This document shows, in pieces, positions 1,211-61,236 of a stretch of DNA of 64,000 nt. The translations under genes and the position numbers were made by a program. Each line of letters opens with the position of its first letter. Within the stretch, counting starts at the first letter, position 1. Origin of the DNA: Planoprotostelium fungivorum (lineage: Eukaryota > Evosea > Variosea > Cavosteliida > Cavosteliaceae); NCBI GenBank assembly GCA_003024175.1, contig MDYQ01000661.1:62001-126000 (forward strand), read 5' to 3'. The notes under the pieces are model-generated. The model was not told the origin of the DNA. It saw only the letters and a program-made list of their open reading frames with translations, and did not search any database.

Positions 1211-4200
1211 ATGAGGAACAGGGTCCACCTCCTGCTGGTCTGTCTCGTCGCCGTTCTGGCCTCTGACCGACGCACTGTGTTCACTGCTTCCAATAATGTA
1301 ACTTACGACCTCTTTGCTCTCAGTGGTCTCGGCAGTGGAATTGGGTGAGTCTTCTTAATCTTTGGTTCTGACCGAGGTAGGGGTGATTTCATCGTGAATA
1401 CAACGAATTGGTACTGGGCGTGGAATCCCTATAGGTATTATTCCCTTTTTATTGCGACTGACACCGACAAGCCCATGTAATCAGCAACCGCTCTGCGCAC
1501 AGACCGGATCTTCTGGAATCCAAATATCGCCTAACAACGGGCAATCGAATGGCTCGTTCGCCATTAGCTATCCTAATTCAACAATCGCTTGGTCATATAA
1601 TGGTGAGAAGGACAACTGAGAATCCATTTTGATTTGAAGGCACTTCCGGAGCAGCTCTCTGGAGCAGTACTGGAGGACAAGATGGACGAGCTCAGACCAT
1701 CAAAATCACATGCGATTCCACTATCGGCACCAACATCTCGTTTACATTTATCAACGAGAGTCCACTCAAGACAATCAACTTTGCGATGAGACTGAATTGC
1801 AGTTATTACTTCAACACCCCATACATCGGTACCGTGTCTGTATCATCCAACACGACCAACGGAGTCATCAACAGTCCCACGATATTATGGATCGCTGGTG
1901 CTGCCTACGGTACAGATTCCACTCAGGTCAGACATCAAACACATGTTGATTCGAAAGACATCTCACCTGGATCACAACATGTTGACATCTAAAAGGTATC
2001 CGTGACCGTCGGTGGACTAGTCTGCCCCATTCAATCCATGGACAATTTCAACATCCTCTGTCTCATCTCCCCTTCACTCGCTCTCAATGCCTCCTACAGT
2101 GTGGGGCTCACCTACAAGGGAATCACGGCTAGAAATGTACCGGGCACGATGATCTATCTGGCCTCCACCAGCAACGCGACGAGCACACCGACAACAGGTG
2201 GTACTTCTACCGTCAGCTTGTACTCCTTCTCCAATGCTCTCCTCTTCACTTGCGCTAGAAATCCTACCGTCACCATTGGATCCACCCTTTATTCGTCTGC
2301 GGTGAGAGAAGAATCTATCGTCGAACTGAACGAGAGGCAGTTGATCAATTCAACTCTCTCGTTCAACGTTCCGGCTGGAAGTGGAATCTATCCCATGTCA
2401 GTCACCTGCGGGAGTGAGTCTCATCCTTTCATTTCACCTCCCGTCGACATCTCTTCACGATGCACATCACATCGATAGCATCTGATCGAACAACATGACA
2501 TCATGACATCATGATCTCATCATCACATCATGATCTCATCATCACATCATGATCTCATCATCACATCATGATCTCATCATCACTTCACCATTGACACGAG
2601 AATAGATACGGTCGTCTGGGGATTCTTCCGCTACAACCCGGCTGTGGTGTATGGTATCAGTCAAGTCATCAATGCGTCGAATGCACAGATCACCATCTCG
2701 GGCAACAACTTTGGCCCGACTGCCAGCGGCATCTACCAAGTGTGGGTGGGCCAGAACCTGTGTTCTCAGTGAGTCTTCTGACGTGATCTGATTATGAATC
2801 TGACGATCGCAGATTGATCATGGTGATACCCCACACGGTTCTCAACTGTACATTGGTGGGAACTTATTCTCCAACTACCTCTGGAAACGTGAACCAGAAT
2901 GCGATCGTCGTGGCTAGCGGTGAGAGATCGTTTGAAGAGGAGACTGATGAGATCAGGAGGGGATAGTGTCGTACCCAACGTACAATTTCCCTCTACTATG
3001 GCACTGGGTGCACCTTATTATCTGGGACAGAATCCAGAATTATGCCGTCAGAAGTGTATCAGTACTGCGGGCTGCAAGAGTTGGGTGTACGATTCTTGTG
3101 GCAGCTCGAATTACGCCTGTTCGTTACAGAGTGACCTCTCTAGTCCCTCCTGGGCTGCCTGTCAGTGGGGTGGTCAGATTTTGACCGGTTCGGCCACAGG
3201 TAATACTCTATTCATCGCTGTCGACTGATTCGAATGGACAGGCCAGACCTCCGTCACACCCGTGTACATGAATAACCCCCTACCCTCCTTACAATACACT
3301 GACGCGTACAACTCGTACAACCTCGACTACTTTGGAGACAGCCAGAACAGCTTGGGAAACGTAGATTATACGGCGACGGATGCCAACGCTTACACTTACT
3401 ACTTCAACCCGGGTGGTCTCGCTCACCCCGCCGGAGCGGTCAACGGATACACTCTCGTTCAGAGATCTTCCTCTCAGAACTACGCTCTCATGTCACCCTA
3501 CGGTATCACCTTCAGCACCAACAGCAGCGGTACCACCTTTCTCACCGGCTACGGAAGCAACGTGGGTGGCTGTGGTGCAAGTCGAAAGACAGTCATGGCC
3601 CTGGTCTGTGATGCCACTCTTCCTTCTCCCGTCTTCACCTTTGTTGGTGAGTCCCCCACTTGCACTTACAACTTTGTATTCCGCTTCAATTGTCTGCAAG
3701 CTGCCAGCAATCCTTATTTCAAGAATATCTACGCTTCTTCAGGTGAGAAGGATCACCGTTGTAGACGGCTGACACGTGCAGTCAATACTTTCTCTATAGG
3801 TGATTTGTATCTGGTTGGACAGTGGGGCACGAATCCCAGTGTCATCACAGTCAGTATCGCTGGGTGCATCGATCGAACTGATTCATCGCATCTGACACGA
3901 TCAGAATCCCCTGCCCTCTGAACACTTCTCTCTTCACCAGCTCCATGTTGGTGTGCACCGCTCCTCCCATGTTGGCAAGCACTGCTCTCGTCACCGTACT
4001 CGTCAACAACCAGCTGGCCAGAAATGGTACACGAGTGCTCCTCCACCTCACAGCTGACACGTACGACAGGTATCTATCTATGGAGCGTCGCAAGCCCGGC
4101 AGTGTCTTCCGTGACGGCGTATCCCACCGCAGGAGGCACGATGACTGTCATCGGAAATGGCTTTGGAAAAGACCCGACTGCCTTCAATATCACTGTCGGT

Positions 4201-7200
4201 GCGTCGTGAAGATTCGAAGACAGATTGAACTGACATGATCAGGTGGTTTCCCTTGTCCCGTTCTGTCCCTCAATCTGAATGGAACGAACATCAACTGTAA
4301 TCTCACCTCCACCAACGGGACCGTCAGCGTCATCATGAGGAACTTTGGACAGTTGGCACCACCCAACCTCCAGCTGATGCTCTTACCACCCAACATCACC
4401 TCCACTTCTCTCGTTCCCACCTTGGGCTCTTCCATCAACATCACCGGCACCGGCTTTGGTAACAGTGTCAATCAAGTATCGGTGACAGCCAACGGAGTCG
4501 ACTGCCCGTTGATCAGCGTGACTTCTACCATGATCGTCTGTACCGTTGGATCCGGCGTAGGCACTCAACTTCCTCTGCTCGTCACCGTGGGAGGTCTCAA
4601 CGTCAGCTCCACGTTCTCTTATCTACCTCCCACCATCATTGATCTCAGATCAGTCAACACCCCCGGTGGCATCGTCAACGTCTTCGGTGCCAATTTTGGC
4701 AACGGTGACAACGACATCAAAGTCACCTTCTCTGGCACTGTGGTACAATCTCACTGGAATTCTGATTCCTACATCACTTTCACGGCCCCCGCAGGCCAGG
4801 GCCTCAAGCCTGTCACCTTCTCCGTGGGAGGTCAATCGTTACCCATCAGCTTCTACTACAACCCACCCGAAATCTACACCGTATCCTCCGTGGACACCAG
4901 TGGTGGACAAGTCATCGTGAACGGTAGGAATTTTGGAACGGATGCCACTGCCATCGGCATCGTTGTGGCCGATCCCAAGGTCATGTACGTTCGAAATTAC
5001 GGCCTCATGTTCAGCCCTCCCACCATCATCACCAACCACTACTCCTTCTCTTTCAATATCGATCCAGGCACGGGCACGAGCAAGATGATCACGATCTACG
5101 TGGGGGGTGTAAATTCATCAGCGGGATCGTTCAGCTACAATCCACCAACCGTAACGGCTCTGAGCGGCGTCTCTACTGATGGAGGAACCGTAGCCATCAC
5201 GGGGAAAAACTTTGGTCCCACGGGAACGAGTATCACCGCACTCATCAATTCCGTTCCTTACGTCGGAACCACCACCGTGGGACACACGGTGTGCTCCATC
5301 AGCGTCAACGGGGGTGTGGGAGCTAATTATCCGGCCTCCGTCACCGTATCGGGTCAGAAGAGTCCGACGGTCAATCTCTTCAGTTACTTACCACCCGTGC
5401 TGATGTCATCATCTCCCGTGTCCACACAAGGACCCTCCACAGTCAGTATCACAGGACAGAACTTTGGTTTGGCGAACAACATGGTCAACGTCACTCTCAA
5501 CGGCCTCAGCTGCGGCAACGTACTCATCCACAACTCGTCTTATCTGACTTGCATCACGGGAGATGGTGCCGGAGGTGCCAATTATCCCGCCGCCATCACA
5601 GTTGGTAACCAGAACGCGTCGAATCCTTCTCTATTCAGTTACAGAGTGCCGGCCATTTACGCTTACACACAAGTGGGAACGAGCGGAGGTTTCATCAACA
5701 TCACGGGGGCCAATTTTGGAAACAACGTACAGCTGGTGTCCGTCAACGTGGGAGGTATCAACTGTACGTCCATCACCATGGTAATCAACCACACCCTCTT
5801 ACAATGCTATCTACCCGGGGGCACTGGTTCCGTACCCCTAATCGTCACGGTCAACGGTCAAGTCAATGCGGCCTCTCTGTATTCCTACACTTTCCCATCG
5901 GTCTCCTTCACGTCTCAGCCGAACACCACTGGAGGTACCCTCACCATCACCGGTTCTAATTTCGGAAGTGTATTGGGTGACATCTCGGTCACACTGTGCA
6001 CCAACATCGTCTTCCATTCCGTAGACTCGATCAATTGCATCGTGCCCGCGGGTTCGGGTGAGAACGACACACAAACGAATTCCACCGATTGATTTGTATC
6101 AGGTTACGACGTAGGAAGAGTCATCACGGTGAAGGGACAGAGCACACTCTTCACCTTCAGTTACGTCCCGCCCACCATCACATCGATTTCTCTCCCACCC
6201 ACGCAGGGAGGTAACATCACTATCTACGGTTCTCAATTCTCCCTGGGTACCTCCGTTATGTACAATGGAATCGGTTGCAATAACGTAGTGGTGGGACCCC
6301 TGCTGAACAATATCACTTGTGTGGCTCCCGCAGGCACGGGTAACGTGCAGGTGGTCGTGGTCGTCAGTAACCAGACGGTGTATACAACGAGCCAGTATCA
6401 ACCTCCCAGCATCACTTTCACCCAACCGATCTCACCTTCAGGAGGTAATCTCTCCGTCATTCATTCAAATGACTATATTGATCTGACACACGCAGGAACT
6501 GTTCAACTCGGTGGTCAGAACCTGGGAAGCAATCGATTCTTGATCGGCATCAACATCGGCACCATCGCTTGCAATAACGTTCAGATCATCACACCTCACC
6601 TACTCATCACCTGTGACCTTCCACCCGGTGTGGGTGGCAACCTCTCCTCCATCGTCACTGTCAACGTTCTCTATGGCTCCTTCACTTACTCCTTCTCCCC
6701 TCCCACCTTCCTCAACTCCACGGCTTCACCCACCCTGGGAGGTCTCATCATTATCACGGGAACAAATTTGGGATCACAGCCATCTCAGGTCATCGTCTCG
6801 GCCAATGGAAGGAGCTGCAGTGGTGTCACCATTGTTAACACCGACGTCATCAGCTGTCTTGCCGCCGCTGGTACAGGAACCAACCTCTCCCTGGCTCTCT
6901 TGGTGGGAGGTCAAATGACTGGGGGCAGCTTCTCTTACCTTCCCCCCACCGTGTCTTCTGCTTCTTCCTCTGGTGTTGCCAATGGAGTCTACCTGTCCGG
7001 TACCAATCTCGTGAGTCACGAGTGAGATGCAATTCAATGGCTGACGCCTAGTAGGGTAACGACGTAACAGTGATGAATGTCACCGTGACAAATTCCGCGG
7101 GAAACAGTACTAGGGTGTGCGGTGGAATTCGCATACTGAATCCTTCTCTCGCTTTAAACTGTTCCGTCACTGGAGCGGCCCTCACTCAAGGCTACAAGGT

Positions 7201-10200
7201 CCAGATCGTTGTAAACGGACAGACATCAGCCCCTGCGGCCTATTCGAACGCCGCCCCTCGCATCCAGAGTGTGACTTCAGCACCCACCAGTGGAGGTATC
7301 ATCACTATCACCGGTTCAGATTTTGACGTGGGGCTCACCGTTACCATCGGAGGCAACGTCTGCAACATCACCTATCTATCTCTGAATACGGTCAACTGCA
7401 CCGTGGGCCCGATGATTGATGGCCGCAGCCTGATTGTAAATCTGACATCATCCTACGGTGCCTCCGTGTCTGGTACTTACACTTATCAACTTCCAACGAT
7501 CACGTCTACAACGAAGGCATCGACCGCGGGAGACTACATCGTCATCAACGGTACCAATTTTCCCGCCTCATCGAGTCAGATCATTGTACTGGTCAACGGA
7601 GCTTACTGCTTTCCATTGGACATCATACAACCATTCACCAGCCTCAGATGTAAGGCCATTGGTGGTGTCGGCACAGATATCCCGGTCAACGTATCTGTGG
7701 CAGGAAGTCCATACACTGGATCCACTACCAGCTATCTCCCCCCTTCTTTCTCTTACGCCACATCTGCCCCCACCAGCGGAGGTATCATCAACATCTACGG
7801 CTCTCAGTTTGGAAGTGACGCCAGTGCTCTCGTCATTACGGCCAACGGGGCACCCTGCCGATCACCTTCTATTGTGATCGCGTCAACGATGGTATCTTGT
7901 AATGCCACCGTGGGTACAGGTTCATCCAACAACCTGAACATCACCGTGGCCAGTCAATCTACGACGGGAACGTTCAGTTACCTCCCTCCCACCCCACTGA
8001 ACGTAACCATGGCTCCCACCTCGGGAGGTCTGGTCACCGTCTCTGGTGTCAACTTTGGTACCATATCCTCTTCCACCTCCATCACCATCAACGGACAGCC
8101 ATGTCTTTCACCCGTCACGTCATCCAACTTCACTACCCTCAACTGTATGGCACAACCTGATGCGGGATCTATGCTTGCCTTGTCCGTCACCGTGGACGGC
8201 CTCACTGGTTCAGCCAACATCTTCAACTACCTACCACCTTCCGTCTATTCTGTCACTTCGGTTTCTACGGCCGGTGGATCAGTCGTTGTAGACGGTAGAA
8301 ATTTCGGTACGAAGGCCTCGGCCATCTCGGTCACCATCAACGGTCAGAATTTTCCGGTAGTCCTCTCGGTCAATCACACGAGATTCTCCTTCACCGCTCC
8401 CAACGGAACCCTCAGTACCACTTTCTACTTGTCCGTGCAGGGCCAGAGCATCACTTCTTCCTTCTCTTACCTCCCACCCAACATCACTCTGGTCAGCAGC
8501 CCTCGCACGTCTGGCTCTGTCATCACCATCAGTGGATTTAACTTTGGATCGGTTGCCAATCTGATCTCTGTCACTTTTCCTTCTGCATCGGGAGACGTCA
8601 CCGTGAGCAACGTCAACATCATCACACCCCACACGATGATCAGCTGCACGGCACCATCTGGAACCGGCCGCAGACCCCTGCGTGCCATCGTCAACACGCT
8701 CAGTTCCTCCGTCTACAACTTTGCCTATCAACTTCCAACGGTCATCACCGTGTCTCCTCTCAACTCTACCGGGGGTAATTTAGTCATCACGGGTGATAAT
8801 TTCGGGCAATTATCCTCCCTCGTTCAAGTCACGGTGGGTGGTTCGACTTGCAGCTCCATCATCATCAACACTGCGTACACCGTCATCACTTGCACACTAC
8901 CCGCTCACCTGATCGGTGCCAACATTCCCATGGCCGTCACTGTGGACGATCTGACGGGTCTGAGCAACTACCGCTCGCAGCCACCTATCCTCTTCGGTGC
9001 TTCGTCTCCACCCACTACCGGAGGTCCCATGGTACTGAGCGGTATCAACTTTGGTGACGCTTCGAACGTATCTGTCATCGTCAACGGACAACTGTGCCCG
9101 CTCATTACGGCCTCGGACTCGATCATCACCTGCAATGCCACGAGGAGTGGTAGCTATCATCCCACCGGCAGCATCTTTTCGTCGGGACAGAACACTTCTA
9201 TTCCCTTCGTACCTTATCAAGGTCCATCCATCTCTTCCATCAGCCTGGGTGAGCCAAACGGAGGTGTCGTCACTCTCAGCGGTTTCAATTTCGGTAATTA
9301 CGCGGGATACATATCCGTCAGCATGGATGGTATCTCATGCACGAACGTCACCATCACTTCTGCCGACTACAACGTCTCGTGTGTCGCTCCGGCCGCAAAC
9401 GGGCCTCAGAGAATGGCAGTCATCACCGTGGACGGCATCAGCAGCCTTCCCTTTCTGTTTCGTTATCTATCACCTGTCATCACCGTGGCATCACCAGTCA
9501 GCACTCGTGGTGGCATCACAAACCTCACTGGCTTCCATCTGGGTGATGGATTTAACGGATCAGTGTCCGTCACCATCAACAATGTCGACTGCCCCATCGT
9601 TGACACCACGGCAAGTACCGTAAGCTGCATCGTTGGAGCTGGCGTGGGAAGCAAGCAGATTGGAAGTATCACCGTCTACAACGTCACATCCGCCTTCACC
9701 TTCTCTTATCTGCCCCCGATCATCTCATCTACAACGAGCACCAACACGACCGGAGGTCTCATCACTATCTCCGGTGATAATTTCGGAGTCGATTCCAGCC
9801 TCACCACAGTGATCATCAACGGAACACTTGCGTGTAATTCTGTCACCATGGTAATCCCCCACACTAGCATCTCCTGCCAACTTATCTCTGGTACCGGCAC
9901 TGGCCTCCCTCTATCCGTCACTGTGGCCGGGTTAACAGGCTCAGGAGTCTACTCTTACCTCCCACCCTTCATCACATCCATCACGAGTCCTCCCACCCGT
10001 GGTGGCTCCGTCACCTTCATTGGCCTCAACTTTGGAAGTGATCCGAACGACATCAGAGCCTACTTTGACGGTCACATCTGCACGGACGTCACAATCATCG
10101 ATCCATCTCATTCCTTCCGTTGCACGGCGACAAACAACACGGGAACGGTGCAAGCCTACGTCGTGGTGGATTCTCTACCGTCTACTCTCGTTGATGTCTC

Positions 10201-13200
10201 TTACCAAGGACCCACCGTGAGTAAGATCCGACCGGCTCCACAGTCGGGAGGCTATCTCTACATCATCGGTGTTAATTTCGGCTACGATATCGAGGAGATC
10301 GACGTTTCCCTACCGTGTGTGAACAAGAGCATCGATTCATTCAGCCCGGAGACACTGTCGTGTTACCTGGAATACGACATCGTGGAGACCGTCACGTTCA
10401 ATGTGACTGTATCGGGTCAGACTACAAACTTCACGGCCATCGTTCGACAGCTGAGCCCCAACTTGGCCTCTCAATACGATGGTGTCATTCGCTTGATGGT
10501 CAATGCATCCACCGCAGTGCCTCGCCCAACGCAGAATTTCTGTTTCGGCTATGCGGCCATCAGGTGTAGCGTGGAAGGTAACATTCGATCACTGAACTTG
10601 TCTGCCGTGCCACTCTTCACTCTCTTCGATGGTCTGTGCGATCTCGTGCATCTAGAGGAATTGTACTTCAGATCTGTCAACGCCAGTGGATCGATTCCGT
10701 CTTGTCTCGACGGCCTCGTATCACTGAGAGTCATCGATTTGGGGTGATGAGAGATAGTTCATCTTGTGGCTGATGATTTGACAGAGAGAACAACATCCAA
10801 GGTGTCATTCCTGACTTGTCTTCTCTATCTCAATTGACCTCGTTGCTACTGGTGAGACGGGTCGTGAGATGGAATGCTAATAGCTCATAGGATCACAATC
10901 ACCTCGGAGGAAGTTTACCATCCACCTTGGCCAATCATCCATTGTCCGTTTTCGATGCTTCCAGCAACGATATCACCGGATACGTTCCAGCCGGTGAGTT
11001 CATTTACATCTAATCATTCGTACGTGAACACACAGAGTGATAGAAGACCGACAGGTATGACCCTTTTACCCTCTCTGACGCGATTGAGAATGAGAGACAA
11101 CTACTTGTCTGGTTTCGCCTCGAACGTTCGACCCATCAACGACAACTTCACCTGTGATATGACGGACAACTTTTTATCCTGCCCCCTTCCATCTTGGGTG
11201 TCATCCCTGTGCAACGGCATCTGTGGACAATCGACACTGACTCCATCCATGAACATCACCCGAGAGACGCTCAGAGCCGTGTATTCCACGACATCCACCG
11301 CACTTTTCTACTTCACGTCCGGCAGCTACAACGACATCAACTTGATGTACGCTTCGATGATGAATCAGAGCGTCACGCTAAAGGGTGTGGGAAATGTCAC
11401 CTTCGGTGGAAACTCACAGATCTCCTTCTCTGGTGCCTCTTCTGTCTCTCTCGATGGCTTCACCTTCTACAACGGTCCCACCCTCTACACTCTGCAGTGC
11501 TCCTCAGTCAACATCTCCAACTGCAATTTCAACCGCGCCAGGTACGTCTTCTCATCTTTCATCTCTACTCACGATCGTCGCAGCCGTTCGATCACCATCA
11601 GTGGAGCATCCACCATCGTCTCTCTCATCCACTCTTCGTTCACAAACAATCTTGCCACACCGATTGTCATCGCATCGGCTAGATCTGCAGATCTCTTCAT
11701 CTCTCAATGCAACTTCATCAACAACATCGGGCAGGCTATGTCCGTGTCTGGTTCCATTGGTAAGATGGATATTACATCGTCCACCATGGAGGGACATCAC
11801 CATCAACTGATGGGAACCGTGGGAATCACTGCCACGGTGGATCGGATGTACCTGAATCACGTGACCTGGTACAACAACTCGGCCATGACGGGTGCCGTCC
11901 TCCTTACGTCATCAGCTATCGGACAATTTTGGGCGTCGGACTTGACCGTCAAGCTGAATTCAGCTTCCGTCGAGGGTGGAGCCTTCGTTTTCGCAGCCTC
12001 TGTCCAGCAGCTTTACCTCCAAAATTCTATTTTCGACAGTAATTCAGCTCAAACCGGTGGTGCCATGTCATTCAAGCTGACGTCAGACAACGTGACCCTC
12101 TACAACACTTCCTTCGCCTATCACACGGCAGCGCAAGGGTGCGCCGTCAACTTTGACGCCACCGCCGTAATCGATGTCATCCATTTCACTTCGGTCAACG
12201 TCACCCAGGGCAACGGTCAGCGCGGTGCCGTGCATCTACCCGGTCTGACTAATTCTACCTTCACCGATTGTACCTTCATCGAGAACCTGGGTGGATCTAT
12301 CTACGGATCTCTCTACGCTGGATCTGTCACATGCTTGGGAACGAGTTTCTCCAATAACACGGCGAACGAAGGAGCGGGCATCGCTCTGTACGGCTCGACC
12401 ACATCAGTCAACGTGGTGGATTCCACTTTCTACGGAAACGAAGCTCTATCTCAAGGTGCAGACGTGACAGTAGAGATGTCTCTGTCCTCATTCTCCATCT
12501 ACAACTGCACCTTCACCTATTCTACGGCACACTTCCAAGGAGCAGCCGTCAACATTGGAGGGTCATCTAAGATACAGAACATCACGGTGGAGGCAGCAAC
12601 GATGAGAGGATGCGATGCATTCTTCGGCTCAGCTCTCGCCGTCGCCGGTCAGTGTCCCACAGTTACCGTTAAGGATTCGAGTTTCATCGAGAATTCGGCA
12701 ACGTTCGAGGGTGCGGCCATCTACATCGCGGACAGGTCGGTGCATAGCGTGTACATCATCGCATCGAAATTCGAGGGAAATTTCGCGTCTTCGGGGGGAG
12801 CTGTGAAGTACACCGATGGTGTCGTGGGAAGTGTCCTGGTCATCGATGGTTCTTCATTCATCTACAACGAGGCGATCACTTCCACTGGAGGGGCCGTCAT
12901 CGTACAGAAATCTGTCGGAAATTTCAGCGTGTCCAATTCATACTTTGCCAACAACGAAGCACAGAGTGGAGGTGAAGGATTTGAATTTTGAATTTCACTG
13001 AAGAACAAAAGGTGCCATCTATCTCTCACAATCGATTGCCATTCCCATCCTCTTGCGTAACAATACGTTCGATGCCAACGTGGCCCGATCGAATGGAGGA
13101 GCTCTCTGTGTGATGCAGTCTCTCAACACCTCCGTTGTAGATTCTACTTTCACGTCCAATCAGGGCAGCTCTGGCGCTTCCATCTGGATCAACTTTGTGG

Positions 13201-16143
13201 GAAAGATTCCCCTGACCTTCACTTTGAACCGGACGACCATTTCGCGCAGTATCTCTACTGTATCGGGTGCTCTACTCTTGTCCTCCATCGTACCGTCCTC
13301 TCAAGTCTCTTTCCTCTCCTTCGACTCCACTTGGTGCGTATCATTCTTTCTTATCATTCAGATCATCCTGTCTGTTCGTCCCTCTCCCATTCATACAAAC
13401 ATTCAATCTCTCATGTTTCAACTCTGATGGTACAAAAGGACGGAGAACGAGGCCAGTTTCAACGGAGGAGGACTACTCCTATCAGGTCTCTTCACCCTAG
13501 TGCAGATCAACGGTGGTCTCTTCTCTTCCAACAACGCTAGCACCGGTGGTGCTATCTCCGTGGAAGCCTCGATCGGCAGTTGAACCTCTCTTCCTCCTCT
13601 TTCCATCACAATTCGGCCACACAGACGGCGGGAGCTCTCTCCATCTCTTCGTCCGTCTCTTTTCTGTCCATCTACAACACTTTTCTCCTCCACAACACTG
13701 CTCCCACCGGTGGTGCCCTCTCTAATATCGGAGCCATCGATGTGGTGATCACCTCCTGTGACATCTCGTACAACTCGGCCACGAGCACGTTTGGAGGAGG
13801 AATATTGTATCAGCCCAAGACAAACGGACTGGCTAGTCTGTCCATCTACAACACCACCGTGAGGGCGAATACGGCTAAGAGCGGTGGAGGATTGTACATC
13901 TCTCCGTCTACAACGGCCATTTTCACCGAACGATCTAATATCTTCCTCGGAAACTCCGCAACTTCCTTGGGTGGAGCCGTGATCATCTCCGGAGAGATAT
14001 CATCTGTGACATCTCGTGGGTCTACCTGGTCGTTCAACTCTGCATCAGACGGTGCCGCCTTCTACTCCACTTCTCCCTCTTTCACTTTCATCTCGGACGC
14101 CTTCTTCCTCAACAACAGCGTCACGGGCAACGGTGGAGCCGTCAGCAGCCTCAACGCAGGCAGCGTGAACATTGACGGCTCTTCTTTCAGTGGTAACAGA
14201 GCTGGAGGCAGTGGTGGAGGCCTGAGTGTCATCATGCGAACAAAGACAAAGAGAGCCGATGCTTCTCCTCCAGATCGAGTCCTCCTCAGCAACTTGACTT
14301 TCGTAGAAAACAACGGAGCCAACGGTGGAAGGACTCAACATGTTCACTCCCAGCACGAACTCCAGAGAGGGAACGATCGTGTTACAGAAGAGTCTATTTC
14401 GATACAACGTGGCCGGCAACGGAGGTGGTGTGGCTACCTCCACCGGTGCTTCCATCTCTGACGTCAAGTTCAACGGAAACGCAGCGAATTCGGGCTCCGC
14501 CTTCACCGTCACGAATTCACCCGGAGGTGAGAAGTCATCCTCTCTCTCTTCGTCTCACACCATACAGACGTGTCTCTGTCCAATGTAGACTACGGTGACA
14601 GTCAGATCGCATCTGTACCGAAGAACGTCACTCTGGGAGGTGACGGTGCTAGCTCCCTCACAGTCGACTGCGGTCAGGGCTACACGTCCAGCAGCGACAA
14701 CGGAGTCACCTCCTGCATCGCCTTGGCTTCCGTTCATAAGGCGAGTTCTGGTCTGGCCACGCCCGTCATCATCGGTATCTCCGTGGCCGCCGCCTCGATC
14801 ATCATCATCATCATCGTGGCGGTGGCTCTACTCATTCGAAGCCGAAACGTACAGAGTAGGATGAGACCCGTGATGGAATTCGATCTGCAGAGCTTCACGA
14901 CGGCGTTGCCAAAGAGTACCGTCATCGAAGAGGCTGAGTTGAAGAATCTGGTTCAGGTGAGAGATGGAGGGTCACGATGGATGATGACACTTTGATAGAT
15001 CGGACGTGGTGCATTTGGTATCGTCTACAAGGCACACTGGAGAGCTGCCGATGTAGCTGTGAGTCGATCTCATCTCCTCGCATGAATACAAGCTGAAGAG
15101 AGGTGCAGGTCAAACAGTTGTTGAATCAAGATCTCCTGGCCAAAGAGGAGATCGAATCGTTCGTACGCGAAGTCCAACTATTGGAGCGATTGAGACCTCA
15201 TCCTAACGTCGTCTTGTTCTTGGGTGTCATTCCACCTCCCAACTTGGCTCTCGTCACGTGAGTTCCTATCTGTCTGTCTCTCCTCTGATTCGTTCTCTCT
15301 AGTGAATTCTGTGAAGGAGGTGACCTCCTCAGCTACATCGAAGACCACGTGAGTCTGATGCGTTGATGATGATGCTGATGATGCAACAGAATCCCAACAT
15401 AGAGATGAGGACCAATTTCATCTCGGACATCGCTGTTGGTATGCTCCATCTGCATAACGAGAACATTGTGAGTTTCGTTCGTACGAGAAGAGTCTGACCT
15501 CTTTCCAGATCCATAGAGATCTCGCCGCTAGAAACGTGAGATCAAATCATCGACAGTGTAATACATCCATACTGACAATCATCAGATCCTTCTCACTGGC
15601 TCCCTACGGTGCAAAGTCACCGATTTCGGTTTCTCTAGAAAGACCGAATCCTCGGAAGAACAGACCAAGTGAGGATCTCTTTATGATGACTTTTCTCTGA
15701 CCACGTCAGGACGACGTCCACCGTGGGACCTCTCAAGTGGATGGCACCTGAAGCCTTGACCCAGAAGGTCTACTCGAACAAGAGCGACGTCTACAGTTTC
15801 TCCATCACCATGTGAGATGTAGACGAATGCACGAAGGTTCTGACAGAGAACAAGGTGGGAGATCTTGACGGGGGAGGAACCATACATGGACCTCAACGTC
15901 ATCGATGTGGCCATCAAAGTGGCAACGATGGGGCTGAGGCCGGCGGTGCCCGCTGGATTCGATCCGAAGCTGGAGAATTTGATGCGAGTGTGCTGGGAGA
16001 CAGATCCAGCGAGACGCCCCGATTTTGCGGCCATCAGTGCTCATCTCGCAAACAAGACGGAAGAACCTCAACCGCTGGTGCCCGCTGAACAGCGTGACGA
16101 TGAGATTCGGTACACCTACATCTCTGAACCGAACGCGACATAA
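1211..16143 (+). CDS. Giant IPT/TIG-repeat receptor tyrosine-kinase-like protein
   Basis: Single-pass receptor kinase of about 4,450 residues from some 30 exons. The start at 1211 gives a signal peptide (HLLLVCLVAVLA). Then come Cys/Ser/Asn-rich ectodomain exons, a first IPT unit (about 2640-2920), a PAN-like module (CRQKCISTAGCKSWVYDSC, about 3040), an MRH-like module (3250-3700; GGCGASRKTVMALVCD, then CTYNFVFRFNC) and about 25 more IPT/TIG units (3904-10450; core GG-x-I-x-G-x-NFG). A short LRR stretch (10560-11120) leads to a right-handed beta-helix-like region rich in NNxAxxGGA turns (11280-14520), a TM helix (about 14760-14830) and the kinase (14996-16110). The kinase has GRGAFGIVYKAHW, VAVKQL, HRDLAARN, DFGFSRK and WMAPE, so it should be active; HRDLAARN is the tyrosine-kinase form. 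Two one-base frame displacements occur in the beta-helix part, near 13580 and 14327. IPT and MRH modules suggest carbohydrate or cell-surface ligand sensing, by inference. Confidence 0.85.
2510..2584. repeat. 19-bp tandem repeat (4 copies) inside an intron
   Basis: The unit CATGATCTCATCATCACAT repeats about four times without spacers. It lies in the receptor-kinase intron between the exon ending near 2413 and the one starting near 2608. It is low-complexity intronic expansion; contiguous units without unique spacers rule out a CRISPR array. Confidence 0.9.
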
Positions 16144-23003: not shown

Positions 23004-26000
23004 TCATCGCCCTTCGGTCGTCCACGTGTCCATCTCGATGAGGGTGATGCTCTCCCTCGACACGTTTGCATCTTCGTAAACCGTCGCATAATCTCTAGTG
23101 ATCGTACCGACGTAGCCTCCTTCAGTGGGTGATGCCTGAATGCCCCCCGCGTGGTCGTAGCCTTCTCTGTCGAGATCGTCCTCTGCGGTCTCGTCGGGTG
23201 GAAGGATGACGTGGGGTATAGATCGGAGGTCGGTGCAGATGTCTTCAAAGTTGGGGCGGGCAGTTGGATCTTTCTGCCAACAACCTGCATCACATCAGGT
23301 TGATGATTGACGATGATGATGACGATCGAGACGATCGGTGATGATCGTGACTCACGTTGCATCATGTCTGAGAGAAGAGGAGGAGAGTCTTCTGGTATGG
23401 TCAATCTCTCGTTACGGTGAATGACGTGAAAAGCGGCTTCGACTGCGGTGAGATTGATCCAAGGCTCTCGAACTTGTAAGATCTCCCATATCACCACCCC
23501 AAACGAAAACACTTTCAGTCAGTCAGCCCAAAATATTAATTTCTCCACCAATTTATACATCACGATCTTGATTCATATATATCACTCACTATCGGATTTG
23601 ATGGAATACTGTCGATCTGATATGGCTTCCTGTGATGACATCAACTTTGAAACAAGGATGAATCATTGAAATCGACTCACGGGTGCCATCCATTTGAGAG
23701 GACCCACTGGAATCGAGTCAATTACAGATGAAAATTAAGAATCTACTCGTTCACCCATGTTCTGAGTCTGCGAAGCTTCGTTCGTGTCATCCTGCTCGCG
23801 TGACAAACCGAAATCAGAGACTTTCACTTCAAGGTGTCTGCTTAAGAGAATGTTCCTCACGGCGAGATCGCGATGGATGATCTGAAATGAATCAATCTTC
23901 ACAATTCACATTTTTGTCTTCACCTTCTCTTTGTGAAGGTGTAACATTCCGAGGGAAATCTCTGAGATGTATCTGTATTTGTCTTGCATCGTGCTCTGAT
24001 TGGTCCTCAGGTGATTGTAGAGAGATCCGCCACCGCAAAATTCTGGAATAAATCAGCGATGGTGAGATATCAGGAAGGATAAGAGATCGATTCATCTTCA
24101 CACATGACGATGATCGTGATCGTGATGATGGACGATGATGATCACCTGTCACGAGAGAGAGTGGATGGGGTGGAAACGTCACACCTATCGTACATTAACC
24201 TTCACCATTCCCTTGATCATTACAAATCGATTTGAAGGTTCGACATCTCACCGATGAACATGACGATGTTGGGATGACTCTTCAAACCTTGCAGGATGGA
24301 TACCTTAAGCCATCAATTTCATCGTGCGAATATTTTTATCTCACTTCGTGGAGAAATTCTTCCATTTGCTTCTGTGTGACCAATTCGGATCGAATCTGTT
24401 TCACCTTTTTCGTTCAATTTGATATTAAATATGAAACACTCACTGCTACTTCAGTTTCTCTCCAATTTGCCTTGTAAACCACTCCGAATGCTCCTGAGCC
24501 GATCTATGAAACGAGATTGAGACGTATGAATGTGATATGACGATGAAGAGATATCAATTCTCAATACACGATCGATCTTACTCTAATCATGGAAAACAAA
24601 TGAGGATATCTGATTCCCACCATTTTCATGTCTTTCAAGTGATCGAAATCGATGAGTGACTTCTTCACGGTGGCCGTGTTCAATTTCGTAAAATCGATCA
24701 ACTTCAGTTGCCGCATGATCGATCTACGATGAACTCTCCTCCGATAGAAGAAGAATGCAACGCTTAGAATGATTCCCACGCAAGCGAAACCACCTCATTC
24801 GAGTCAGCCTCCTCTTTCCATTCCACATCAAACGATCGACTCACCCAGCAGACCACCCAATAGAGGTGCGACAGAGTCGTTCGCATTCTGCACAGAAGAA
24901 GGTAGCGAACCGATGGGATCTAACAGAGTGTAACCACTCTTAGACATGTCAACTGAAGAGATGTCTTCTAATATGCCGATCGTGTCGTTGACGGAACCCT
25001 CGTTAACTCCTTCGTACGGTATCACTCTTACAGTAGCGATGATGCTGCCAGACCTGATGGATGTCATTCTAAATCGACGTGTGTACACGTTCACCTGACA
25101 TCTGATAGACTCAGACGAGATGAAGAGACGTTGGACAGTGAGGACAAGGTGGAGATGAAGTGAAGAGCGTCGAATTTGTCGACGGAGCCCTCCATGTGAA
25201 AGTGGAGAAGCTGTGGGACGTTGGGCCCCTGCGTGGAGCAGATTGCGGAGCATTGTGCGAAGAGTTCCCACGAGATGGGACAACGTAGAGAATTCGATGA
25301 GATATCGCAGGAGATGTCATCAGGTAGGTCAGACTGTGTTAAATCAATTCCTCCACACATATGACGATTCGAGATAAATACAAATAAATTCGAGGAGTGG
25401 TAATTTAAAGATATATGACACTTACCGTTCTAGCGAGAGATAGATTGTTGCTGGACAGATCCAATTCAGAGAGGCTCGTAGATCCAAGGAACGAAGGAAA
25501 TCTACCGGAAAATCGATTGTCGCTGTCATCGTTCATCATGATATCTCATGAGACGTCTCACCTGGCGTTCAAGGTAACGAGGGAGAGTAGGTTGGTGAAA
25601 TCAGGAAGTTGACCCTCCAATCGATTGCGACTGTCACGCTCATCAGCGGAAATTTCCTCTAAATTTCAAACCTGATGTCGACGTGGATCAGATTCTTCCG
25701 AGAAGTCAAAGCGGGTAATTGTCCGGAGAAATTATTGTTGTGCAGTGACAAGTGAGATATAGACGACAACTGTGACAAGAAAGTGACATCCCCCGAGAAG
25801 AAATTGTCGCTGATAATCGTCAGGATGATCGATGGGATAGACCGTACCTGAGATCCAAAATCTGCGACAGATCAGATGCGAATCGACGATGTCACGTGCG
25901 ATGTCTCACCTTGGGGTCACTGATGAGCCTTCGGAAAGTTCCTTGTAACATGTTATTTCTGTTCATCATTCAGAACAAATGAGAGAGATGAGATGTCTTC

Positions 26001-38740: not shown

Positions 38741-40281
38741 ATGGGCTCAGGTGGATTGAGAGGCCAAAAGAAGAAGAGCGACACGAAAGAAGATGTTCAG
38801 TCACCAGCCCCTGCTGCACCTTCGAGCAAGCCCACGTCTGAACCTGTGGTCCTGACTGCTGTAGGAGCGTCAGATGCATCTTCTAACGAAACATCCACAA
38901 CAGCGAGCTCATCGAAGGTGATCGATCGTCATCTCAATCGAGTTCTGCCTCTAACGACGAGATCATACAGACAGGAATCGTCTTCGATGAGAGGATGAAA
39001 TTGCATTTTGCGGCGAAAAAGCATCCAGAGAGACCCGAGAGATTAGATGCCATCATCGATCTGCTGAGGGCGGAGGGAATTTTAGATAAGTGCATCCTCT
39101 GCAAGAGTCGATCAGTCACCGACAATGAATTATGTTTGGCTCACTCAAACAAGGTGTGTATCTCTCATGATGTCCCAACGAAACGTGCGATTGATCTTCT
39201 TCAGCATATGGAAACCGTCTCTGAATCCGTTCAAAAGTCGATCGACAGAGAGGCTGACGTCTATTTTACCAACGATACCTACTGCAACAAGGACAGTGCA
39301 ACGGTGGCCAGGATGTCAGCTGGCTGTCTGATCGAGTTAACGGAAAGAGTAGTCAGAGGAGAACTATCGAATGGTTTCGCTATCATAAGACCACCAGGTG
39401 AACGAACATTGAGAGGGCGTCTGCTGATCTGGATAGGTCATCATGCTGAGAGGGAGAAAGTCATGGGTTTCTGTTTGTATAATAATGTGGCCATTGCATC
39501 ACTCGTAGCCACAGAGAAATTAGCCGTGCACAGAGTCCTCGTCGTAGATTGGGACGGTGATCACTTCATCATCGACCTCACTGACTGATCGCAGTTCATC
39601 ATGGAAACGGAACGCAGCAGATCTTGGATGCGATGAACAACGTCCTCTATTTCAGTGTCCACAGACACGAAGACAAAAAGTTTTATCCTGGAACGGGGTC
39701 GATCGATGAAGTGGGAAGTGCAAAAGGTTTTTCTGTCAATGTACCGTGGGCCGAGAAGGGTTACGGTGATGCAGAGTATCTGTGGGCCTTTCACAAGGTG
39801 ATCACATCACACCTTCGTTTGATCATCATCGTGATCGACTGTCTAATGATGTTCTGTAGGTTTTATTACCTATCGCAAGAGAGTTTGATCCCGATCTGGT
39901 GATCATCTCTGCTGGCTTCGACTGTGCTGCCGGTGATCCAGTCGGCGGTATGAACGTGTCCGTCGAGTGCTTTGGTAAACTCACACAATTGGTCAGGTGA
40001 AGATGATTCTTTCATCGGTACGGCTCATCACCGACACGAACAGAGACACACAGAGAGAGAAGAAGGTCGTCATGGCATTAGAGGGAGGATACAATACTGA
40101 GGTCATATCGAAGGCCACTCTGACTTGCGTTAAGACACTGTTGGGTGAAGAGTGGAAGAACGATGACTGCCCTTTAGAAGATGAGGTGGCGCCGTCGGCG
40201 AGACAGACAGTCAAGGATGTGATTTGGACGCAGAGTCAATATTGGAAGAATCTGAAGCAGCAACTGTCCTCAATAGATTGA
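38741..40281 (+). CDS. Class II histone deacetylase
   Basis: Zinc-dependent lysine deacetylase of the HDA1/HDAC6 class. The start at 38741 opens a low-complexity basic/Ser-Ala-rich N-terminus (GQKKKSDTKEDVQSPAPAAP). The catalytic domain runs TGIVFDERMKLHFAAKKHPE, HPERPERLDAI, RPPGHHAE (tandem His), DWDVHHGNGTQQI (zinc Asp and His), VISAGFDCAAGDP and ALEGGYN. All zinc and charge-relay residues I can check are present. About 430 residues, one catalytic domain, no ubiquitin zinc finger or second domain, so closer to HDA1 or plant HDA5/15/18 types than to double-domain HDAC6. Introns are 40-60 nt. Confidence 0.93.
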
Positions 40282-40798: not shown

Positions 40799-42341
40799 AT
40801 GGACAAGTACGTCATTTTAGCTCAAGTTGGTGAGAACATTTGGAATAGAATCACGATAACTGAAGACATTTTTCTCAGGAGAAGGCACCTTCGGAGCCGT
40901 ATATAAGGCACGAAGCAAGCAGACGGGTGAAATCGTCGCGCTTAAGAAAATGTATAACCAGAATGATGAAGAGGGGTGAGACTTTGATCTGCCTTCGAAA
41001 TGGAGATGGTTTCCATTCGATCTGACTCAACGTCAAGTCTGAGCTATTTTGCCCTTCAAGAGATCAAGTATCTCAAGCAATTGAACGGCAGCCCAAATGT
41101 AATCCACCTCATAGACAGTTTCATTCACGAAGGTGAAAATTCTACGGACGATAGACGTCTCAACCTCTTAGATGTCGAGGGGATTAAGAAGGCATGCATC
41201 GTAGTCGTATTACCGTATTACGAATCCGATCTCGTCGGAGCTCAGACTGCTTTCACAGGCATCCGAGAGGTCAAGTGTGCCATGCAACAGATCCTCACAG
41301 GTGATCTCAACCCATTCATCCACATCTTCTCGATCTCACCGACGAAATCAGGTATCTCTTCGATGCACGCCAATCATGTCATGCACAGAGACATCAAACC
41401 TGCCAACATGTTGATGAGGGACGGAGAGATCGCCATCGCAGATATGGGTATGACGACCAGCACCAACACCACCTCTCCACTCCCACACCAAGTCGTCACC
41501 CTATGGTACCGCCCCCTCGAGCTGGTGATCTGTCCATGTCCATAGAGGATCATGCTGATGATCGTGTCAGCTGTTCGGTGCCAATCGATACGGCCCAGAG
41601 GTAGACGTGTGGTCTTGTGGCGTCTTGTTCATCGAGCTCATGAGCCGCAAGTGCCCGTTTCCCGGTAGAACTGAACACCATCAAGTCGTGAGTTCATCGT
41701 GAACCATCTTAAGATGGAGACTGAAGAGAGAGAAGGAATTGATCTTGGAGCTGATGGGACAGAGCTACATCGACCAATCAGAAGGGCTGAACAAGTTGTC
41801 ACTGTACGAAAAGTACATGCCAAAGAGGGAACTGCCTCGCAACTCTCAGCTGAAACGAATCTTCAGCTCGTGGGCTGACGATGCATTGGATCTATTGTTG
41901 AAGATGCTGTGTCCAGGTGAGAAGCATTTCCCGCCATTTTATTTCCCGCCATTTTATTTCCCGCCAATTTATTTCCCGCCAATTTTCTGACGGGGTACAG
42001 CCAAACAGAGGTGGACTGCTAGTCAGTTACTCGACCACCCCTTCTTCACCAACAACCCCTCCCCCTGCAGTCCCAAAGACGTCCCAAAAGTTCCCGCCAT
42101 GCACGAGTACGAGATGAAGCAAAAGTACCACAACCAAGGCAGGACGACACAGAGGAGGGAGGAGATGACACACGCACAAGGTCCTCCAAATAAGAAGCAA
42201 TGTCTACCCACTCATGCACCGATGCCACGATCACAGCCACGCAGTTTAGACAAGAACAAATTGCACTCGGGGCAAGAAGGGTATAGACACAAGGTGCCGG
42301 TGACGGGAGGCAGCAGGACATCAGAAGAAACGAGTAACTGA
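40799..42341 (+). CDS. CDK7-like cyclin-dependent kinase
   Basis: CMGC kinase. The start at 40799 reads [20 protein letters not shown], with VALKKMY and a C-helix [14 protein letters not shown] closest to the CDK7 form (RTALREIKLLQEL). Then come [17 protein letters not shown] (Phe of DFG replaced by Met), [14 protein letters not shown] (APE replaced by PLE) and [19 protein letters not shown]. The C-terminal tail has FFTNNPSP and PPNKKQCLP, reminiscent of the CDK7 end (SNRPGPTP, LPKKLIF). The catalytic Lys, HRD Asp and DxG Asp are kept. HQVVTxWYR is typical of CDK7/CAK, so a role with cyclin H/TFIIH is likely but not proven. One intron carries four E2F-like repeats. Confidence 0.8.
41917..42000 (+). 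repeat. Intron with four 15-bp repeats each holding TTTCCCGCC
   Basis: TTTCCCGCC occurs at 41927, 41942, 41957 and 41972, exactly 15 bases apart, joined by AATTTA/ATTTTA spacers, within the 84-base intron of the CDK-like gene. The repeated nonamer matches the E2F consensus. It may be a small tandem expansion or an intronic regulatory cluster. Confidence 0.85.
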
Positions 42342-43730: not shown

Positions 43731-45120
43731 TTATTGCGATGTGATAAACTCGTTGTTGTGTACATTTCTTCCCTCGATGGTCTCATCGTGATCGTTGTCG
43801 AGATGATGGTTGACCTTCCATTCACCGTCTACGAAGAATTTGACGAGATAGCGCGTGCTGGGTGAGAGGTCGTCGACCTGTGAAATTTAGACGGGATGGC
43901 GGCATGTGATATGATGATGCATCACCTGTCTGATGTAAAGATCTCCACCCTTTTGTTGCATGGGGAGTAATTCCCAATCGTTCCAAGATCCTGCGACCTA
44001 TATAGAAGATGAGATCTCATGTGTGTCCGTCCATTCGTTCACCTGGACATCGTTTCCTCCATGCTCCCATCGGATGATGTGTGAGACCTTCTTATCTCCG
44101 GTCTGTGCACTCTCTCTCGCCTTTCTGTCGGCTTCCTCCTTGGCCTTTCTGTCGGCCTCAGCCTTGGCTTTAGCATCAGCGGCGGCCTTGGCATCAGCAG
44201 CGGCCTTAGCATCAGCAGCAGCCTTGGCATCAGCGGCAGCCTTAGCATCAGCAGCAGCCTTGGCATCAGCGGCAGCCTTAGCATCACCCTTGGCTTTAGC
44301 ATCAGCAGCGGCCTTGGCGTCAGCAGCGGCCTTAGCATCGGCAGCAGCCTTGGCATCAGCAGCGGCCTTGGCATCAGCAGCGGCCTTGGCATCAGCAGCG
44401 GCCTTGGCATCAGCAGCGGCCTTGGCATCAGCAGCGGCCTTGGCATCAGCAGCGACCTTGGCATCAGCGGCAGCCTTGGCATCGGCAGCAGTCTTGGCAT
44501 CAGCAGCGGCCTTGGCATCGGCGGCAGCCTTAGCATCGGCAGCGGCCTTATCAGAAGCAGCCTTAGCATCAGCAATGGCCTTGGCCTTGTTGTTGAAGGA
44601 AGCGCTCTTCTTGACGGGAGGTGGCTTAGCCACGGTGATCTGAAAGACATTTACTCATGTGAAGGTGATGGGACGTAATGTGAATAGAATGATGCGGTAT
44701 CGGTTATCACCTTCAAGATGTCGAGATCGGGGGCGACTTCTCCTCCTTCGGTCACACCTGCAGAGGCAAGCATCTTTTCGTATCCCTTGAGGAACTCGTT
44801 GAAACTGAGCAGATCGTTTCCAGAGGCATCCAATCTCTTCATCAGAGTGCGAGTGAGCTCATCGATGTTAGACTTTCCATCTTGGTAGGCGGGAACACCG
44901 CTGACGAGGTTTCTCAACTCGGTAAAGTTAAGGTTTCCATCTCCATCTTGCTCATACTCTACATCCAAGTCAGCTCTTCTCTCGTGGATATCGTGTCTTG
45001 ATGATACGATGGAATCGAACACGACTCACTCGTAAAGTAGCCAGACATGGTCGTGTACTGCTCATCGGAGAATCTGAAGATTCTGGAAGGTGAACGAACG
45101 AGAACCTTGTTAGAAGCCAT
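43731..45120 (-). CDS. EF-hand / Ala-Asp-Lys repeat / CBM48 glycogen-binding protein
   Basis: Start at 45120 (MASNKVLVRSPSRIFRFSDE). Two EF-hands lie at the N-terminus: YEQDGDGNLNFTEL and DASGNDLLSFNEF. A long, nearly perfect repeat of ADAKAA units (about 44590-44150) should form a charged single helix and then becomes ADRKAKEEADRKARE. The C-terminus fits an AMPK-type glycogen-binding module (CBM48): HIIRWEHGGNDVQV, then across an intron VAGSWNDWELLPM, YLVKFFVDGEWKVNHHLDND. The conserved Trp of GSWNDW and the VDGEW motif are present. The stop at 43731 is 1 base from the opposing gene's stop. Role inferred: a Ca2+-responsive carbohydrate- or glycogen-associated protein with a rigid spacer. I know no family with this order. 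Confidence 0.8.
44150..44590 (-). repeat. Coding tandem repeat encoding ADAKAA units
   Basis: An 18-base-period GC-rich repeat in one exon of the CBM48 protein, about 25 units. The opposite strand is also open throughout, reading ALASAA repeats; that is a by-product of the repeat and not a gene. It is likely length-variable between strains. Confidence 0.9.
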
Positions 45121-55769: not shown

Positions 55770-56327
55770 CTAATTGTTCCACGTGGGGTCATTCTTCCTC
55801 CTCTTTCCGTTCATCTTCGGTGTCTCCGTCTTTCTCTTGTGTTCCACTGGTCTAAATCGAAATGTGATCTGGCCCAATGCATTGACGGGTGGCTGTATGC
55901 AGCTGGGGCACGTGTATCCTTCGCTCCAGCTCCTGCTGTCTCCTCCATGCTCCTCTTCACACGATGTATGACACCATCGATTGCACGTCTTGCAGGATAC
56001 CCAGTCATCCTGCTCCAGACCGATGAGCTTCTCTTGTTCTTTGCCATAGATGAAGTGACAGTGGTAACAGTATTGGTTCTTGTGATACTTGAGTCCGCAA
56101 GCGTTGCATAGCAGTACAGATCGTCCGAGCATCTCAGAGTACCATCCCTTCCTCCATTGTGGCGTCTCACATGCTTGACAGTTTTCACAGTACTGTCTAA
56201 AGTGACTGATCAAGTAGGCTCCAAAGTTGATGTCGGACTCTGGGACACTTTCTGCCTCCTCTAAATATTGTGAAGTCGTACGGCCGAACGTGGGCTTGAA
56301 ACTCGAACTGGTCACAGCTAAAGCCAT
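55770..56327 (-). CDS. GATA-type plus PHD-type zinc finger protein (copy 2)
   Basis: Intronless paralogue of the gene at 36104-36706, about 19 kb away on the same strand. Start at 56327 (MALAVTSSSFKPTFGRTTSQ). The GATA-like finger CENCQACETPQWRKGW ... LCNACGLKYH has the same 23-residue spacing. A PHD-like finger follows: CYHCHFIYGKEQEKL, CKTCNRWCHTSC, CPSC. The basic C-terminus (EHKRKTETPKMNGKRRK) looks like a nuclear localisation signal, which copy 1 lacks. It converges on the HO-like gene with 190 bases between stops. Probable transcription or chromatin factor. Confidence 0.85.
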   Translation of the reverse strand: MALAVTSSSFKPTFGRTTSQYLEEAESVPESDINFGAYLISHFRQYCENCQACETPQWRKGWYSEMLGRSVLLCNACGLKYHKNQYCYHCHFIYGKEQEKLIGLEQDDWVSCKTCNRWCHTSCEEEHGGDSRSWSEGYTCPSCIQPPVNALGQITFRFRPVEHKRKTETPKMNGKRRKNDPTWNN

Positions 56328-61067: not shown

Positions 61068-61236
61068 GTTGACGTGGACGATGAGGATCACGCAGGAGTT
61101 GAAGGTGGGGATAGAGCGAATACGCTTCCGCAAGACAAAGTCCTATTAGAGTGGTCCCTGTCAAAATTGTGTACCTCCATTGGCAGCTTGTAGAATACAA
61201 AGGTTTCATGCGAGCCGCTCATCATAAACATAACGA
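61068..61236. promoter_or_regulatory. 169-bp bidirectional promoter (pseudokinase / CK2 beta)
   Basis: Short space between two divergent ATGs. No TATA element or clear known site was recognised. The position alone makes it the shared promoter. Confidence 0.4.

Follow-up and report, generated by a model that had tools for sequence, protein, structure and literature searches.

Giant IPT/TIG receptor kinases with a hybrid kinase domain in the genome of Planoprotostelium fungivorum

Does one amoebozoan gene join a long extracellular array of IPT/TIG domains to a kinase with tyrosine-kinase (TK) catalytic-loop residues, and what might such a receptor do? The question is raised by positions 1211-16143 of a 64,000-nucleotide stretch of Planoprotostelium fungivorum DNA (contig MDYQ01000661.1, positions 62,001 to 126,000, forward strand; hereafter the window). 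An earlier note, made from the sequence letters, read this locus as a single giant receptor kinase. Judged by sequence comparison, the locus is one gene for a single-pass receptor kinase, and it has at least four counterparts in the same genome. As a whole reading, we lean slightly toward a giant contact or prey receptor kinase that signals in part by phosphotyrosine through docking at its C-terminal tail.

A family of at least five giant genes

The window gene is modelled with 31 exons and 30 introns, encoding a product of ~4,470 residues whose predicted ectodomain accounts for ~4,130. When the assembly (36.9 Mb, 471 contigs) was searched with the kinase, TIG and leucine-rich repeat (LRR)-beta-helix parts of this gene, four loci with the same module order were found elsewhere: C33, C28 (minus strand), C250 and C149. 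Together with the window gene they make a family of at least five genes, referred to here as the giants. N-terminal blocks were compared in C33, whose alignment to the window protein starts at residue 13 because its own start falls beyond the stretch covered, and in part of C149, while C28 and C250 were covered from the IPT array on. Protein-guided spliced alignment gives identities of 58-75% for C33, C28 and C250 and 36-53% for C149, with 53-75% across the paralogs for the kinase part. None of the 21 aligned paralog blocks contains an in-frame stop.

Intron positions and phases tell the same story. Among introns covered, 29 of 30 are common to the window gene and C33, 17 of 18 to C28, all 16 to C250 and 11 of 22 to C149, in an alignment guided by the window protein and hence biased toward agreement. 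No intron separates the transmembrane helix from the kinase in C33 or C28, so that in both a single exon carries the helix and the kinase start. Substitution patterns are those of purifying selection. Relative to C33, dN/dS is 0.20 for the N-terminus, 0.205 for TIG, 0.19 for LRR, 0.16 for the beta-helix, 0.22 for the stalk and 0.089 for the kinase, at a dS of 1.2-1.5 that is near saturation; kinase values against the three closest paralogs (C33, C28 and C250) are 0.08-0.15. Against C149, where dS is near or past saturation, dN/dS is 0.34-0.58 outside the kinase and 0.19 within it. Because four paralogs keep the same order, with conserved introns, no stops and low dN/dS, the earlier claim of one receptor kinase in this order holds, and the anatomy of the giant as modelled is almost certainly right.

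A hybrid kinase and its tail tyrosines

Which kind of kinase lies under this ectodomain? The motifs HRDLAARN and GPLKWMAPE both occur in all five giants. The pattern HRDLA-x-RN appears twice in the window, the other copy belonging to a second kinase, where 100 shuffles lead to an expectation of 0. The catalytic loop DL(R/A)A(A/R)N, a published TK diagnostic in the passages available from PMC3937382, is thus matched by every giant. The published form of subdomain VIII is XP(I/V)(K/R)W(T/M)APE, and here the giants carry a leucine at the I/V position and fit elsewhere.

Several observations weigh against a straightforward TK assignment. Firstly, no activation-loop tyrosine is present in the window kinase. 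Secondly, all five giants retain the histidine ahead of HRD that is typical of serine/threonine (Ser/Thr) kinases, at a position that we assumed from the sequences of Aurora A, EphA3 and BRAF. Thirdly, the highest-scoring single domain in the PDB is that of the Ser/Thr kinase CTR1 (182 bits, versus 153 for a Src-Abl ancestor); for the C149 kinase, the two score alike at 166. Finally, the subdomain X motif GXR(L/M), another published TK diagnostic, reads GLRP in five of five. Loss of the histidine is likewise a TK-group criterion in the part of PMC4771162 consulted. By its motifs, the kinase is a hybrid that combines TK-like substrate-side motifs with Ser/Thr-type features. It is very probably active, and tyrosine or dual specificity is marginally favoured.

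Phylogeny sets the giants within a lineage of their own. They form one clade (n=5; support 97/92 in a first tree and 100/99 in a second) nested in a clade of 21 kinases from this genome, five giants and 16 others (99/99 and 98/99), which is separate from animal TKs (100/98); two other kinases of the genome, L014 and L029, fall outside it. The trees are unrooted and include 7-8 reference kinases; the second was built without IRAK4 and L029, which have very long branches, and both without L011 and L012, whose models contain a stop or are incomplete. In an approximately unbiased (AU) test on the second tree, neither a grouping of this clade with TKs (p 0.538) nor one with CTR1 (p 0.381) was rejected. 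The tyrosine-kinase wording that the earlier note saw in the catalytic loop therefore extends to the P+1 loop and stops short of GLRP, the retained histidine and the tree; phylogeny recovers a genome-specific clade compatible with both TK and tyrosine-kinase-like (TKL) affinity, and it does not place the giants among animal TKs.

TK-type catalytic loops are strikingly many in this genome. HRDLA-x-RN sites number 142 (reversed-pattern control 0) and GPxKWM-type loop sites 91 (control 0), as against 71 HRDLKxxN sites (control 1), a figure below the full Ser/Thr set because HRDIK-type spellings fall outside it. These site counts differ from gene counts, since uninterrupted exons were counted and some contigs look like near-duplicates (C128 and C225, for example). 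Twenty further kinase loci were modelled, 10 of 30 having been skipped as lying inside giants or repeating a locus; 18 carry HRDLA[AVL]RN and two are HRDLK types. The P+1 loop GP[LIV][KR]WM is found in 16 of the 18; the other two, L011 and L012, are duplicates of a single locus whose model is incomplete.

The C-terminal tails offer a second line of evidence. In the window gene and its three close relatives the tails contain YTYISEPN, YSRILSPD, YSTMMGPD and YSSIVSPD, beginning 9-10 residues before the stop, so that the motif occurs in four of five giants; tail tyrosines of C149 lie in other contexts. A wider set comprised the five giants and 17 others of the clade type, leaving out L012 (a copy of L011) and the HRDLK types L014 and L029. 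The first eight residues after RPxF were removed, the first in-frame stop was taken and tail introns were ignored. These 22 tails hold 39 tyrosines, 20 of them in Yxx[ILVMF] contexts in 14 tails, against a shuffle mean of 6.3 and none of 20,000 shuffles as high. With the repeat-rich L021 removed, 16 such sites remain in 13 of 21 tails (mean 5.2, again 0 of 20,000). Because the tails are related, which inflates the result, these shuffles do not give an independent-sample probability. At the exon level the genome has 79 SH2 and 43 PTP matches. Two points count against tail docking: the tail part tested has no tyrosine in five of 22 (L004, L006, L008, L010 and L020), and Yxx-hydrophobic is also a classical endocytic sorting signal, which is why SH2 docking is something we infer. 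Phosphotyrosine signalling by the giants is plausible, and strengthened by the tail motifs and the SH2 and PTP domains; tyrosine phosphorylation by these receptors is likely but unproven.

The best-surviving alternative is that the giants are TKL-type Ser/Thr receptor kinases whose TK motifs are convergent and whose tail motifs are endocytic sorting signals. The CTR1 match, GLRP, the Ser/Thr-type histidine, the missing activation-loop tyrosine and the AU result for the CTR1 grouping (p 0.38) all fit it, and we regard it as quite possible, if short of an even chance. It accounts poorly for the joint presence of both substrate-side motifs in all five giants and in 16 of the 18 further modelled loci that are of HRDLA type, and for the many SH2 domains of the genome.

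Proposed role and precedents

If the giants do signal by phosphotyrosine, they could act as follows. Cysteine/aromatic and PAN-like blocks would sit at the tip of the ectodomain, with the IPT array as a rod and the LRR and beta-helix near the membrane. The ectodomain would bind something on another surface, whether prey, another cell or matrix, and binding would cluster the receptors so that their cytoplasmic kinases phosphorylate each other. A phosphorylated tail tyrosine in the Y-[ST]-x-[IM]-x-x-P-[DN] motif could then serve as a docking site for SH2 proteins, which may in turn trigger uptake or adhesion. In this scheme it is the surface location, the type of ligand, receptor clustering, tyrosine specificity, docking and output that we infer. 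A contact receptor role is probable. We favour the sensing of contact or prey, coupled to uptake, because the closest functional precedent is Dictyostelium VSK3, described below, and a role in prey recognition or phagocytosis rather than kin recognition is proposed tentatively.

Kin recognition is the setting of a less probable alternative, in which the giants are allorecognition or kin-adhesion receptors, kinase-bearing counterparts of Dictyostelium TgrB1/TgrC1. Dictyostelium Tgr proteins resemble the giants as membrane proteins with IPT-type ectodomains but are not known to carry a kinase; the one Tgr-type match of the window protein in Pfam, a TgrO1-like Ig match, is sub-threshold. The IPT-rich ectodomain speaks for such a role, as does a very large IPT array at C98 that seemingly ends in a transmembrane helix and short tail. 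Against it, none of 90 overlapping 80-codon windows between C33 and C28, the two youngest paralogs (dS 0.15-0.50 by part), has dN/dS >1, the median being 0.17 and the maximum 0.53. We consider allorecognition unlikely.

Among known receptors, MET and plexins also carry IPT domains outside the cell, with a TK inside in MET, and have Sema and PSI domains before the IPT domains. Neither Sema nor PSI has a Pfam match in the window protein up to E 0.1, and the MET kinase is an animal TK, whereas the giants' kinases lie outside the animal TK clade. Closer precedents come from amoebae. Dictyostelium rk3, of the DRK family, is a TKL receptor kinase with a TIG ectodomain (PMC1420674) and, like the giants, has a signal peptide, extracellular TIG, one transmembrane helix and a C-terminal TK-like kinase; compared by description, the passages available give it a TIG domain only and mention neither a long array nor an LRR, beta-helix or PAN-like block. 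VSK3, a TKL receptor kinase required for phagosomes to fuse with late endosomes/lysosomes (PMC3135261), is likewise a single-pass TKL-type amoebal receptor kinase and has several cytoplasmic tyrosines; unlike for the window gene, no giant modular ectodomain is mentioned in the available part of its description. Acanthamoeba has 22 protein tyrosine kinases (PTKs; PMC4053784), or 21 in the table of the Physarum paper, and Physarum has four (PMC4758236). Their receptor-type kinases resemble the giants in being amoebozoan transmembrane kinases that carry PTK residues and have SH2 readers; a word search of the main texts of these two papers did not return the IPT/TIG domain that the giants carry. 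Passages of PMC8662651 set out a paraphyletic "Group B" of divergent tyrosine kinases outside Holozoa, Dictyostelium included. Likened by description only, these and the giants are tyrosine-kinase-like sequences outside Holozoa, and the clade of this genome may belong to that set.

The earlier note had held that no characterised receptor known to it shows this module order. The literature covered (titles, abstract openings and passages) indeed did not contain the full order, a weak negative because most subscription journals and all supplements lay outside that coverage, but rk3 provides a TIG-TKL precedent. As far as these sources go, the giants extend known TIG-bearing receptor kinases, with rk3 as the simpler case.

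The kinases of the giants' relatives appear to sit under varied ectodomains, which would make the giants one branch among modular receptor kinases. Judged by eye among the translations listed, and each with a transmembrane helix, these are beta-helix in L002, L006, L010 and L018, LRR in L015, L021 and L030, and cache/HAMP-like in L004, L008, L020 and L022. The last arrangement, a cache/HAMP-like sensor over a kinase of this clade, resembles that of bacterial chemoreceptors. Receptor tyrosine signalling is usually presented as an animal story. A bolder reading, which we offer as speculative, is that an extensive phosphotyrosine receptor system has been elaborated separately in this genome, in which a PTK-type substrate loop is set on a TKL-type core, IPT, LRR, beta-helix and cache-like ectodomains are interchangeable, many Yxx-hydrophobic tails are read by SH2 proteins, and the giant IPT receptors are contact sensors. 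If so, the kinases would either be a surviving TKL-TK intermediate or show that tyrosine specificity arose independently; the sequence of steps by which tyrosine kinases evolved would become testable through the giants' hybrid kinases and tail tyrosines, and the giants would be concrete candidates for contact sensing by a lone cell.

Gene model, ectodomain modules and other loci

Automatic splice modelling with codon-usage training over-split the exons, and introns were set by hand and checked against the paralogs. The coordinates, strand and most modules given in the earlier note were right, but it missed two one-base frame breaks that divide the model into pieces of 3,751, 249 and 471 residues (Table 1). 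Both fall within the beta-helix region and weigh against an intact window gene. C33, C28 and C250 read through this stretch in a single open frame, with no stops in 312-313 codons, which confines the breaks to the window copy, where they would represent either assembly error or recent damage. Such damage would make the window copy a recent pseudogene in a family that otherwise functions, an outcome we consider improbable given that the model is open elsewhere, that kinase dN/dS against close paralogs is 0.08-0.15 and that the window kinase branch does not exceed the C250 branch in length (0.15 versus 0.17 and 0.14 versus 0.18 in the two trees). That two adjoining genes, an IPT adhesin and a receptor kinase, were wrongly joined is suggested by size only and is scarcely credible, given the identical order at four other loci, single exons that span the last IPT and LRR, the LRR and beta-helix, and the stalk, transmembrane helix and juxtamembrane region, and the missing transmembrane-kinase intron in C33 and C28.

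Table 1. Features of the giant receptor-kinase gene (window positions)
Feature	Position	Strand	Basis or remark
Spliced receptor-kinase gene, ATG to stop codon	1211-16143	+	Six-frame reading and hand-set splice model
Start codon and signal-peptide-like hydrophobic N-terminus (MRNRVHLLLVCLVAVLA)	1211..1264	+	Sequence; hydrophobicity and eye only
First cysteine/aromatic block, "MRH-like", intron-interrupted	1295..1818	+	Conserved in C33
Introns (n=30), 36-192 nt, 26/30 at 36-50 nt	1345..15854	+	Splice model; GT-AG, mostly GTGAG donors
~3 divergent IPT/TIG copies ahead of PAN-like block	1816..2961	+	Hidden Markov model (HMM) from the window's own repeats, weak scores
PAN-like cysteine block	3007..3186	+	PAN_4 E 0.0019, below cut-off; conserved in C33
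Second MRH-like block	3310..3693	+	Conserved in C33 and C149
Main IPT/TIG array, ~25 copies of ~82 residues	3721..10441	+	Pfam TIG and own HMM
LRRs flanked on both sides by cysteines	10541..11251	+	LRR_8 37.9 bits vs cut-off 27, E 1.5e-9
Beta-helix-type repeats (GGA repeats), approximate limits	11255..14590	+	Chlam_PMP, AlphaFold2
One-base frame break, approximate place	13581	+	Frames 0 and 2; C33, C28, C250 continuous
Second one-base frame break, approximate place	14330	+	C33, C28, C250 continuous
One transmembrane helix, inner side basic	14762..14836	+	Kyte-Doolittle maximum 3.11
Kinase domain over 9 exons	14933..16056	+	PF07714 (PK_Tyr_Ser-Thr) 6.2e-72, 242 bits
Catalytic loop HRDLAARN	15512..15535	+	Motif reading
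P+1 loop GPLKWMAPE	15726..15752	+	Motif reading
Tail YTYISEPNAT with Y-[ST]-x-[IM]-x-x-P-[DN] motif	16111..16140	+	Motif common to C33, C28, C250

The modules of the window gene run in the order signal peptide, MRH-like block, a few IPT copies, PAN-like block, second MRH-like block, ~25 IPT copies, LRR, beta-helix, transmembrane helix and kinase, and the product has 96 N-glycosylation sequons. Most modules of the earlier order are borne out, but the first MRH-like block lies ahead of the PAN-like block and of some IPT copies, and the second lies after the PAN-like block. A Pfam search bears out the labels TIG, LRR, beta-helix type and kinase, whereas PAN stays sub-threshold (PAN_4, 18.6 bits versus a cut-off of 27) and MRH is without support. 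TIG (PF01833) matches 6 and 19 stretches, 25 in the whole protein, with E values of 7.5e-35 and 1.4e-120 and scores of 119 and 394 bits against a curated cut-off of 20.9. The self-trained and lenient own-repeat HMM counts 27 copies in the main array, two of them fragmentary or weak, and 30 before the LRR, several weak.

MRH identity of the N-terminal blocks is not supported by these comparisons. The blocks have no Pfam match and no support in a PDB profile search; the second, aligned to an MRH set with hhalign, gives a probability of 6.4% (P 0.0057 over 35 columns), and its AlphaFold2 model, at a pLDDT (predicted local distance difference test) of 35, is not usable. The best of three hits in the profile search, to bacterial insecticidal proteins (E 0.083), was taken as chance.

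For the region below the LRR, a beta-helix fold is suggested rather than proved, because the single-sequence AlphaFold2 model of 11585-12970 has a pLDDT of 68, with many short strands, and Foldseek with this model gave nothing at E<=0.001. The top Foldseek matches are PL6 lyases (E 2.1e-3); LRR proteins and other solenoids rank lower. Chlam_PMP matches 13580-14327 with 32 bits (cut-off 20.6, E 9.1e-8) and the preceding piece with 15 bits (E 0.031), under the cut-off.

Further observations concern other IPT and kinase loci. The C98 array (C98:16480-43771, minus strand) includes a 5,674-residue open frame and takes in L031, L042, L044-L046, L050, L051, L056, L057, L059 and L060; its frames presumably form one gene, and the C-terminal frame encodes a TM-like helix and a short, kinase-free tail. 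Two IPT-array genes on different contigs, L055 (C124:55586-60028) and C362:103039-107481, show near-equal spacing, which would reflect either duplicate contigs or recent duplication; no kinase lies near either among the matches listed. The second receptor kinase of the window (23226-24638, minus strand, with upstream exons to ~26 kb) carries HRDLAVRN and GPLKWMAPE and apparently has an LRR ectodomain, judged by eye, and a transmembrane helix.

In the window gene itself, the longest intron (192 nt, 2414-2605) holds a repeated ATCATCACATCATGATCTC-type unit. An alanine-lysine-rich repeat frame (AAADAKAA) at 43939-44675 has long open frames on both strands, with no Pfam match for 44001-44654 on the minus strand. 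Ordinary eukaryotic neighbours in the window are a histone deacetylase (38887-39585), a protein kinase (40988-41542), a GATA finger (55773-56333) and a casein kinase II regulatory subunit (61234-61698).
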